Below are positions 28,208 to 31,240 of a stretch of DNA of 64,000 nucleotides, piece after piece. This DNA comes from Caulobacteraceae bacterium PMMR1 (GTDB lineage: Bacteria > Pseudomonadota > Alphaproteobacteria > Caulobacterales > Caulobacteraceae). The position numbers and the translations under genes were made by a program. The notes under the pieces are model-generated. The model was given only the letters and a program-made list of their open reading frames with translations. It was not told the DNA's origin and did not search any database. The first letter of the stretch is position 1, and each line of letters starts with the position of its first letter. The stretch spans positions 2,046,001 to 2,110,000 of the forward strand of contig JPOM01000001.1 in NCBI GenBank assembly GCA_000733915.1, written 5' to 3'.

Positions 28208-28271
28208 GCCCGCGCACCTCTCGTTAACCGACGCGTCCTAACGCTTGGGCCTGCGTACCAGCAGGCCGGTC

Positions 28272-29522
28272 ATGAGCGCTCCCCAGGCCGCCCCGGCGGC
28301 CGCCCACAGACGACTGACCCAAACGGAGGCGGACGCGATCTGCCTGCGCCACGACCGCCTGTGGCAGGGGCGGCCCGGCGGCGCACGGGCGGTGTTCTCC
28401 CACATGGACCTGAGCGGGCTGGACCTTTCCGGGCGCACGCTCAGCGACGCGGCCTTCGCCGGCGCGACCCTGGTCGGGACCAAGCTTGCCGGCGCAAAGC
28501 TCGACAACGCCGTCTTCTTCGGCGCGGACCTGCAGCTGGCGGACCTGCGCGAGGCCTCGCTGCGCCGCGCCGACCTGCGGGGCTGCTCGCTGCGGGGCGC
28601 GAACCTCTGCGGCGCGGACCTTTTCGAGGCGGACCTGCGCGAGGGCGCCATCGCCGCCTATGATCGCGTGGAGGGCTTCCGCCGCCTGGAGCACGCGGTC
28701 GCCGCCGCCGCGCAGGGCGCGTCGCTCATCGGCGCCAACCTGCAGCGCACCAAGCTGTCCGGCATCATGGCCGTACGCGCCGACTTCACCGACGCGGTGA
28801 TGCGCGACGCCAAGCTGGTGCGGGCGAACCTGAAGCAGGCGACGCTGACGGGCGCGGACCTCGCCGGCGCGGATCTCAGCCACGCCGACCTCTCCGGCGC
28901 GGACCTGACCGACGCGGTGCTGGTGGGCGCGATCACCGCCTCCTGGAAGGTCGAAACCGCGCAGCTGGCCTCGGCCCTCACCGACGAGCCCGCGGGCCTG
29001 GCGCTCTCCAGCCAATCGGTCAACGACATGCTGCGCGCCCACGCCCTGTGGTGCGAGACCGGAGGGGAGCGCGGGCGGCCGTCCCTGTTCGACAAGGCGG
29101 ACCTGCGCAGCCTGGGCTCGATCCGGGGCCTGAACCTGACGGCGCTGTCGGCGCGGGGCGCGGTGTTCTACGGCCTGGACATGGAAGGGGTGCAGCTCCA
29201 GGGCGCGCACCTGGAGGGAGCGGACCTGCGCGCCTGCAACCTGCGGGGCGCGGACCTTCGCGGGGCCCGGCTGACGGGCGCCAAGCTCTCCAACTCCGAC
29301 CTGCGCGACGTCCACCTCGGGCCCCTGCTCATCGCCGCCGACCGCCTGCTCGCCGCCGACCTGACCGGCGCGCGGCTCAAGGGCTGCGACCTCTCCCGCG
29401 CGGACCTGCGACGGGCGGTGCTGACCGACGCGGACCTGGAGCGCGCGAACCTGACCGGGGCGAACCTGCGGCAGGCCGAGATCGAGGGGGCGAACCTGCT
29501 GGGCGTCCAGGGCATCTGCTGA
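28272..29522 (+). CDS. Pentapeptide-repeat protein
   Basis: A 416-residue protein dominated by A(D/N)LxX pentapeptides that should fold as right-handed quadrilateral beta-helices. A first block spans about residues 40-225 (for example LDLSGRTLSDAAFAGATLVG and ADLAGADLSHADLSGADL). A non-repeat insert, about residues 226-285, contains SQSVNDMLRAHALWCETGG. A second block then runs to the end. There is no signal peptide. The insert between two helices occurs in several alphaproteobacterial homologues, but the function is unknown. Similarity to gyrase-protecting Qnr proteins is only by fold. Confidence 0.88.
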   Translation: MSAPQAAPAAAHRRLTQTEADAICLRHDRLWQGRPGGARAVFSHMDLSGLDLSGRTLSDAAFAGATLVGTKLAGAKLDNAVFFGADLQLADLREASLRRADLRGCSLRGANLCGADLFEADLREGAIAAYDRVEGFRRLEHAVAAAAQGASLIGANLQRTKLSGIMAVRADFTDAVMRDAKLVRANLKQATLTGADLAGADLSHADLSGADLTDAVLVGAITASWKVETAQLASALTDEPAGLALSSQSVNDMLRAHALWCETGGERGRPSLFDKADLRSLGSIRGLNLTALSARGAVFYGLDMEGVQLQGAHLEGADLRACNLRGADLRGARLTGAKLSNSDLRDVHLGPLLIAADRLLAADLTGARLKGCDLSRADLRRAVLTDADLERANLTGANLRQAEIEGANLLGVQGIC

Positions 29523-29595: not shown

Positions 29596-30075
29596 TTAGG
29601 CGGCCCGGGCTTGGTTGGCCGCAGGCGCCTGGTCGATCAGGCTGTCCGAGCGGGTCCCGGTGGAGATCGCGATCGTGCGCGGCTTCAGGGCCTCGGGCAG
29701 TTCGCGACGCAGGGAGATGGAGAGCAGGCCGTCCGCCAGATGGGCGTCGGTCACCACCACATAGTCGGCGAGCTGGAACCGGCGCTCGAAATCGCGCTCG
29801 GCCAGGCCGCGATGCAGGTAGCGCTTGCCCTCGTCATTGACCGACTTGCGGCCTTGGACGGTCAGCAGGTTCTCCTTCACCTCGATGGAGAGCTCGTCCG
29901 GACGGAAGCCCGCCACCGCCATTTCGATGCGGTAGGCGTTATCGCCGACGGTCTCGATGTTGTACGGCGGGTAGCCGGACGCAGTGTCCAGGCGCTGGGC
30001 CGTCTCCAGCAAGCTGGCCAGCCGGTCGAAACCGACAACCGACCGATAGAGGGGGGAGAAGTCGATCGTACGCAT
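29596..30075 (-). CDS. Small heat-shock protein (Hsp20/IbpA family)
   Basis: An ATP-independent holdase that binds unfolding proteins. The 159-residue product starts MRTIDFSPLYRSVVGFDRL, the IbpA-type start, followed by an alpha-crystallin domain (YNIETVGDNAYRIEMAVAGF, LSIEVKENLLTVQGRK) and the I-x-I-like C-terminal motif (RTIAIST). The start at 30075 is preceded by GAAGGAGG. A hairpin in the leader sequesters that ribosome-binding site (separate entry), suggesting heat control at translation. A terminator follows. Confidence 0.94.
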   Translation of the reverse strand: MRTIDFSPLYRSVVGFDRLASLLETAQRLDTASGYPPYNIETVGDNAYRIEMAVAGFRPDELSIEVKENLLTVQGRKSVNDEGKRYLHRGLAERDFERRFQLADYVVVTDAHLADGLLSISLRRELPEALKPRTIAISTGTRSDSLIDQAPAANQARAA

Positions 30076-30113
30076 AAGCAATCCTCCTTCACACAAGCAA
30101 GGTTGCAAAGCCT
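30076..30113 (-). promoter_or_regulatory. Candidate ROSE-type RNA thermometer in the hsp20 leader
   Basis: In the minus-strand RNA, CCUUGCUU (30102-30095) can pair with AAGGAGG (30089-30083) across a 5-base loop GUGUG, leaving one bulged G. This is the layout of the last hairpin of ROSE elements, where a U(U/C)GCU sequence with an unpaired or mispaired G covers the Shine-Dalgarno site until heat opens it. Pairing was done by eye. The remaining leader up to 30394 (shared with thyA) shows no other element I can name. Confidence 0.6.
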
Positions 30114-30394
30114 GCAGAGATCTCCACAAGCTCTATGTGACAGACCTCAGGACGCGCCAAAGCCGCGCCCGGTCCGTGACGACCCGAAGACCGGCATCGT
30201 CACAGCGGATAATATGGAAATGGGCCTGCAACCGCGCAAGCCCTCTCCCCCGAACCGGAATGTGCGTTGCGGCCGGCCTGGATGGGCCCGCTCATCGCCC
30301 GGCCGCACTGCTTCCGGGCGGGACGAGAGCGGCTGGCGGTAAGGCGCGATCGGCGCGTTAATAGGGGGCTCGAATCGGCCGAGGAGTGCACCCG

Positions 30395-31240
30395 ATGTCC
30401 GCCGCCGTCCGCCTCGCCCCCGACCCGCCTGCCCCGCCCGACCACCCGGAGCGGCAGTACCTCGATCTCTTGGCCGACATCTTGGCCAACGGCGTCAGGC
30501 GCGAGGACCGGACGGGCACGGGCGCCCTGGGCGTGTTCGGGCGGCAGATGCGCTTTGACCTCCGCCGCGGATTTCCGCTGCTGACCACCAAGAAGCTGCA
30601 CATGAAGTCGATTGCGCTGGAGCTGCTGTGGTTCCTGCGCGGCGACACCAACGTGCGCTGGCTTCAGGCGCGGGGCGTCAGCATCTGGGACGAGTGGGCG
30701 GGCGCCGAGGGCGAGCTCGGTCCGGTCTATGGCAAGCAGTGGCGGAGCTGGGCGGCGCCGGACGGGCGCTCCATCGACCAGATCGCGCGTCTGATCGCGG
30801 GCCTGCGCGACAATCCCAACGGGCGGCGGCACATCGTGAGCGCCTGGAACCCCGCAGACGTGGACGACATGGCGCTGCCGCCGTGCCATTGCCTGTTCCA
30901 GTTCTTCGTGGCGCAGGGGCGGCTATCCTGCCAGCTCTATCAGAGATCCGCCGACGTGTTCCTGGGCGTGCCCTTCAACATCGCGAGCTACGCGCTGCTG
31001 ACGCACATGGTCGCCGAGGTCGTAGGCCTTAAGGTCGGCGACTTCGTGCACACTCTGGGCGACGCGCACCTCTACCTCAATCACCTCGACCAGGCGCGGC
31101 TGCAGCTGACGCGCGAGCCGCTGCCCCTGCCGAGGCTCAAGCTCGCGCCGCGAGCGGACATTTTCGCCTTCGAGTACGAGGATGTGACGCTCGAGGGCTA
31201 CCAGGCGCACCCGCATATCAAGGCGCCGGTCGCGGTCTGA
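30395..31240 (+). CDS. thyA: Thymidylate synthase (ThyA)
   Basis: Makes dTMP from dUMP using methylene-tetrahydrofolate. The 281-residue protein has the folate-dependent ThyA signature: EDRTGTG, the [12 protein letters not shown] loop, the catalytic Cys164 in [30 protein letters not shown] and [12 protein letters not shown] 30395 is preceded by GAGGAG at 30381-30386 with good spacing; a GTG at 30386 is less likely. Divergent from hsp20. The short proline-rich N-terminal extension is unusual but harmless. Confidence 0.97.

Follow-up and report, generated by a model that had tools for sequence, protein, structure and literature searches.

The hsp20 Gene, Its Orthologues and Its Putative Promoter

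The window, that is, the whole stretch of 64,000 nucleotides analyzed here, belongs to a source genome of 2.67 Mb, which set the scope of the genome-wide scans, and carries on its minus strand an hsp20 or ibpA-like small heat-shock gene (29596–30075), an open reading frame of 159 amino acids plus stop. A profile search identifies the product as a true Hsp20 (PF00011, 66.6 bits); IbpA is the closest NCBIfam model, at 164.5 bits and under its cut-off of 212, and the best named matches come mostly from Phenylobacterium, so that the Hsp20 relatives probably place the genome in the Caulobacteraceae. The ATG lies at 30075–30073 on the minus strand and is shared by the orthologues, and since ATGCGTACGATCGAC, or a stretch resembling it, also opens the genes of the relatives, this start is regarded as the correct one; a longer frame opening with TTG is also present mechanically in the list of open reading frames. 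A thymidylate synthase gene runs from 30386 onward on the plus strand, divergent from hsp20 and separated from it by about 310 bases. On the other side, convergent with hsp20, a 425-amino-acid pentapeptide-repeat protein (PF00805, 209 bits) is encoded at 28245–29522 on the plus strand.

The comparisons rest mainly on 95 distinct orthologous leaders, of which 30, the one in the window included, came from a search in the same family and 65 from a broader search; for some of the latter, membership of the Caulobacteraceae is presumed, because their records carry no label finer than order, class or phylum. Loci L001 and L003–L005 were omitted on account of overlap with other loci of the same genome, the count of 111 leaders also leaves aside L002 (a duplicate of L007) and L008 (a frame-split paralogue), and the set of 95 further excludes the paralogue L007, the distant loci L112–L117 (five labelled as other groups, and L112 from an alphaproteobacterial MAG of unassigned position) and repeats of the same leader, while nearly identical leaders were retained. 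The genus of the window is represented in the comparison set by one genome.

Between the two divergent genes, a putative sigma32-type promoter (30211–30240, minus strand) comprises CTTGCG at 30240 (−165) and TTCCATATT at 30219, the assignment being derived from motif counts and, for the −10 part, from inspection by eye. A CTTG motif combined with a CCCAT-like stretch is a form of the sigma32 promoter. CTTG[AC] occurs at −170 to −125 in 94 of the 95 leaders, L093 being the exception, vs 522 of 4,750 shuffled upstream stretches, and CTTGAA in the same range in 78 of the 95 vs 60 of 4,750; the window, which has no CTTGAA, holds a weaker copy. In the 45 rows printed, a CCCAT-like stretch often follows the CTTG motif by about 15–17 nt, as judged by eye, and nothing promoter-like was detected in 29900–30450 by a generic scan for sigma70 sites. 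Transcription probably starts near 30200, which would give a leader of about 125 nt before the ATG. According to PMC8119881, the two small Hsps of C. crescentus accumulate only under stresses acting through sigma32.

The Hairpin over the Shine–Dalgarno Sequence

Just ahead of the ATG, the minus strand can form a hairpin, GCAACCUUGCUU-GUGUG-AAGGAGGAUUGC (30078–30106), recognized both in the sequence and in the fold and referred to below as the sensor hairpin. The first-pass annotation had proposed that the Shine–Dalgarno sequence AAGGAGG (SD; 30083–30089, 7 nt ahead of the ATG) pairs with the upstream stretch CCUUGCUU (30095–30102), leaving one bulged G and a loop of five bases, and this pairing is found exactly as described in the minus-strand sequence; the anti-SD stretch contains UUGCU, the ROSE motif as defined in PMC3669281. 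Read along the minus strand, the 5′ arm consists of GCAA (30106–30103), CC (30102–30101), UU (30100–30099), the bulged G (30098) and CUU (30097–30095), the loop GUGUG occupies 30094–30090, and the 3′ arm continues with AAG (30089–30087), G (30086), AGG (30085–30083), a bulged A (30082) and UUGC (30081–30078). The GCAA/UUGC pairing, absent from the earlier description, lengthens the stem by four pairs below.

A variant in which G30098 and G30086 face each other as a G·G mismatch is equally stable (−8.1 vs −8.0 kcal/mol at 37 °C; ViennaRNA). The SD of the window reads AAGGAGG, vs AAGAAGG in most relatives, and it is therefore that a G stands opposite the bulged G; at this place of the SD, a U–A pair forms in 84 of the 94 hairpin-forming leaders and a U–G pair in 10. 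A G–G contact of this kind was reportedly seen in the structure of a ROSE hairpin by Chowdhury et al. in 2006.

The folding energy of the leader lies little below that of shuffled sequences (z of 0.25, −1.0 and −1.4 for 56, 91 and 141 nt, respectively). When the leader is folded together with the AUG, the sensor stands as a separate hairpin and the cost of opening the SD falls from 6.1 kcal/mol at 25 °C to 3.8 at 42 °C and 2.7 at 50 °C; with 12, 20, 30 or 45 coding nucleotides included, it falls from 3.8–6.7 at 25 °C to 2.7–4.3 at 42 °C. Among nine starts of the window, hsp20 ranks sixth in opening energy at 25 °C, five of the eight others, a crude control set of mechanical open reading frames, being costlier. 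Energy is not taken as proof, because the z-scores are weak and the opening energy does not separate hsp20 from these eight starts. ROSE hairpins are described as using non-canonical pairs (PMC3669281), which energy models of the kind applied here do not score.

The hairpin might instead be a constitutive damper of translation, with heat induction proceeding via sigma32 transcription alone, a reading that can draw on several points: heating lowers the opening cost of any SD hairpin, the cost for hsp20 is unexceptional among the nine starts, the context with 30 coding nucleotides shows almost no opening, and the sigma32-like promoter motif is conserved. Nevertheless, such a damper is considered improbable, given that 94 of the 95 leaders retain precisely this imperfection, a bulged G facing the SD, as do tested thermometers, in which perfected pairing locks the hairpin (PMC3669281).

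A further point concerns the coding sequence itself. With 30 coding nucleotides included, the minimum-energy fold swaps the sensor for a pairing between the SD and CUUCUCC in codons 5–9 of hsp20, and the mean chance of the SD being unpaired is 0.20 at 25 °C, 0.22 at 42 °C and 0.26 at 55 °C, which would suit a masking of the SD by these codons and not by the leader. This is scarcely credible, however, for the minimum-energy fold at 30 °C retains the sensor with 3, 12, 20 or 45 coding nucleotides, and CTTCTCC or CTCCTTC appears in the first 33 nt for only 26 of the 95 leaders.

Conservation and Distribution of the Sensor

The sensor hairpin, in its SD/anti-SD part, is present with at least six of seven pairs in 94 of the 95 leaders, that of the window included: the 94 split into 87 leaders with all seven pairs and 7 with six. 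Among 19,000 shuffled leaders, 195 attain six pairs or more and 22 attain seven. The hairpin over the hsp20 SD is not a chance feature. Like the window, 93 of the 94 relatives pair U(U/C)GCU imperfectly with the SD, and L107 alone among the leaders lacks the sensor motif.

Conservation of this degree could also mean that a protein or a small RNA recognizes the block, as DNA or as RNA, with the pairing merely incidental, and the near-invariant sequence GCAACCTTGCTT, found in 71 of the 95 leaders, is what a binding site would be expected to show; ROSE itself was originally interpreted as a site of protein binding (PMC4166951). What is conserved here, however, is two complementary arms, whereas the loops between them vary from 3 to 6 nt, and the upstream hairpin of the relatives carries compensatory changes, which together make a binding site a very unlikely explanation of the block.

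Pattern searches point to the same place. TTGCTTN{2,8}AGGAGG occurs a single time in the 64 kb, at the hsp20 leader (shuffle mean 0.01), and among 106 ATG or GTG codons of the window, these being codons with an SD-like stretch upstream and not confirmed genes, only the hsp20 start has a hairpin of the U(U/C)GCU type in which six or all of the seven pairs form. The stricter pattern CCTTGCTTN{3,7}AAGRAGG has one occurrence in the whole genome, again at the hsp20 leader, and 44 matches in 41 of 118 family genomes, the reversed control pattern giving 5. According to coordinates compared by hand, 37 of these 44 matches precede, by 13 nt at most, the region of their genome that best matches the Hsp20 of the window, and 7 lie elsewhere; in its exact form the strict pattern is absent from 77 of the 118 genomes, and many printed leaders deviate from it by one or two letters. 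Sensor-like matches away from the best hsp20 match are seen at a few places, such as G058:C83 and G117:C11. An order-wide search matched 22 of 150 genomes, 11 of these outside the Caulobacteraceae, and some of the matches away from the best hsp20 or in other families of the order may be due to chance. In a plasmid search, the matches were distant and fell for the most part in hsp20 coding sequence.

Structure and Covariation in the Leaders of Relatives

RNAalifold on a MAFFT alignment of the 95 leaders returned only a five-pair enclosing helix upstream, with the sensor hairpin missing; because the SD of some rows was off by one base in that alignment, it was replaced by a hand-set structure followed by realignment. 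The resulting model, R1, comprises an upstream hairpin and the sensor hairpin, with the structure set by hand from relatives and the sequence of the window excluded. Its seed of 24 was obtained by reducing the 94 other leaders to 35 and removing 11 by eye, on account of a 5′ part poorly aligned in alignment A1, three of these 11 being from Brevundimonas. Over 73 of 117 loci, R1 matches 62 at E < 0.001, 24 of them seed members. Weak matches at the correct place are given by the locus of the window (E 0.16), L092, L107, L112 and L102, and four more weak matches are located elsewhere; in the paralogue L007 and in L113–L117, no match up to E 1 was obtained.

A conserved structure with compensatory changes is present in the leaders of the relatives. 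In the 62 matched leaders, which do not include the window, 93.3% of cells are paired and two-sided changes occur in 9 of 18 pairs, counts that lean towards the structure, since the alignment had been fitted to it. The covariation score is 0.187 vs 0.105, and all 500 shuffles stay below the observed value on every one of five measures; when the partner is slid by one to three columns, pairing falls to 36.5–50.6%. The two-sided changes are concentrated in the upstream hairpin (six of seven pairs, 36 of 46 cells); in the sensor helix, they affect 3 of 11 pairs, namely, the one closing the loop and two of the lower stem, beneath the SD. The SD-core pairing is accordingly supported by conservation and not by covariation, because its pairs are nearly invariant, as is expected when one arm is the ribosome-binding site. 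In the relatives, an enclosing helix around the upstream hairpin (A1 columns 19–23/65–69) shows two-sided changes at all five pairs; it was left out of R1 and is not visible in the sequence of the window.

The 5′ part of the leader in the window differs from this picture. The energy fold places two or three hairpins before the sensor, one of them weak: a predicted hairpin of 12 pairs directly 5′ of the sensor (30107–30134, minus strand) and a further one at 30140–30177 on the same strand, both known from the minimum-energy fold only, whereas the upstream hairpin of the relatives is backed by covariation. This part gives no convincing alignment with the relatives, and the sequence of the 30107–30134 hairpin is not common to them. 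The best R1 match within the window is the hsp20 leader, ending at the ATG (15.6 bits, E 0.027); in the genome-wide scan, it falls short of significance (E 1.12, third among the 16 matches listed), and among the 73 loci it is near background, because the 5′ hairpins of the window differ from those of the relatives. With upstream hairpins so unlike, only the sensor is clearly shared.

Relation to Known ROSE Elements

ROSE-like elements are described as the commonest type of RNA thermometer (PMC3669281), and more than 40 have been predicted in alpha- and gamma-proteobacteria (PMC4166951). The first-pass annotation had expected the Rfam ROSE models to recognize the leader, which they do not: no match at the gathering threshold occurs in the window. 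RF01832 (ROSE_2) scores 15.5 bits against a threshold of 65 (E 2.2); this sub-threshold alignment nevertheless extends from end to end of the model (1–73) at 30144–30069, in register with the SD and the ATG, and the first of its hairpins overlaps the predicted one at 30107–30134. RF00435 (ROSE, threshold 45) gave no match in the window and none at E up to 10 in a scan of 601 nt, and a 27.7 kb scan covering the leader of the window and seven relatives yielded none for either model up to an E of 3. None of 16 orthologous leaders tested, those of the window and L107 included, reaches a ROSE threshold, nor is there an Rfam match in the distant loci L112, L115 and L117. Because all 16 orthologous leaders were missed, the failure reflects the reach of the models more than the element.

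The same genome holds a paralogous hsp20, 50% identical, and here RF00435 is above threshold (47.7 bits vs 45), at 1941–2041 of L007 on the minus strand (near 2183743 of G000:C1, outside the window), directly before the ATG of the paralogue. This element carries the same AAGGAGGAUU as the window, after a UCGCUU arm. Just downstream of the paralogue lies another, different hsp20, and at L004 (G000:C1:2329417–2329700) an hsp20-like match is split between two frames, which may represent a frameshifted pseudogene or a sequencing error.

The ROSE-bearing gene of C. crescentus is reportedly CC2258, as given by Waldminghaus et al. in 2005. The ROSE-like thermometer of that hsp20, CC_2258, otherwise CCNA_02341 (PMC3751524) or sHSP1/IbpA (PMC8119881), resembles the case in the window in that the gene is of the same kind and the bacterium a relative, and C. 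crescentus is listed among the bearers of classical ROSE, whose elements have three to four hairpins (PMC3669281); differences of the window from this kin in the SD and the 5′ hairpins were judged on the leaders of other relatives. The ROSE-like element of Pseudomonas ibpA, as described in PMC3669281, has, like the window, U(U/C)GCU opposite the SD within its 3′ hairpin and, in line with what is predicted for the window, an open AUG, a GC-rich 5′ hairpin and a sigma32-dependent gene; it differs in having two hairpins in leaders of 61–62 nt, where three or four are predicted in about 125 nt for the window. A search for papers treating Caulobacteraceae and RNA thermometers together found none in a limited literature collection, a result that is silent on papers beyond it.

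In summary, the hsp20 leader of the window is most probably a ROSE-like RNA thermometer, with a probability of roughly 0.87, and a response to temperature is predicted for it. It belongs to a small heat-shock gene (PF00011, ATG at 30075) and can pair the SD imperfectly with U(U/C)GCU, around a bulged G, in its 3′-proximal hairpin, the U(U/C)GCU over the SD in such a hairpin being a major characteristic of ROSE (PMC3669281). The predicted 5′ hairpins, the sigma32-like motif and the conservation in relatives also fit the class as characterized in PMC3669281, which has two to four hairpins, at least one of them a stable one 5′ of the sensor, and the original proposal of a ROSE-like thermometer is upheld in this respect. 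Once transcription has begun some 125 nt ahead of the ATG, probably from the sigma32-type promoter, the 30106–30078 hairpin would, at growth temperature, pair the SD with CCUUGCUU and exclude 30S ribosomes. The bulged G (or G·G mismatch), the U–G pair, the bulged A and the A–U pairs would leave this hairpin marginally stable, and it is this marginal stability that is proposed to let it open on heating, so that the Hsp20 chaperone would be made.

More tentatively, and with rather less than even confidence, the Caulobacteraceae hsp20 leaders may constitute a ROSE subfamily beyond both Rfam ROSE models, in which the sensor is an interchangeable module and the 5′ hairpins have been replaced, in the lineage of the window, by unrelated ones. 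The result for the 16 leaders tested suggests that public RNA-family models overlook the Caulobacteraceae branch, and annotation by them would therefore miss such leaders. With the leader in the window, a class of which a related bacterium was already a known bearer gains a further thermometer candidate, one with good support; since the role of the 5′ hairpins of ROSE is described as not fully understood (PMC3669281), the 95 leaders, with a fixed sensor and variable 5′ hairpins, would be useful for studying it.
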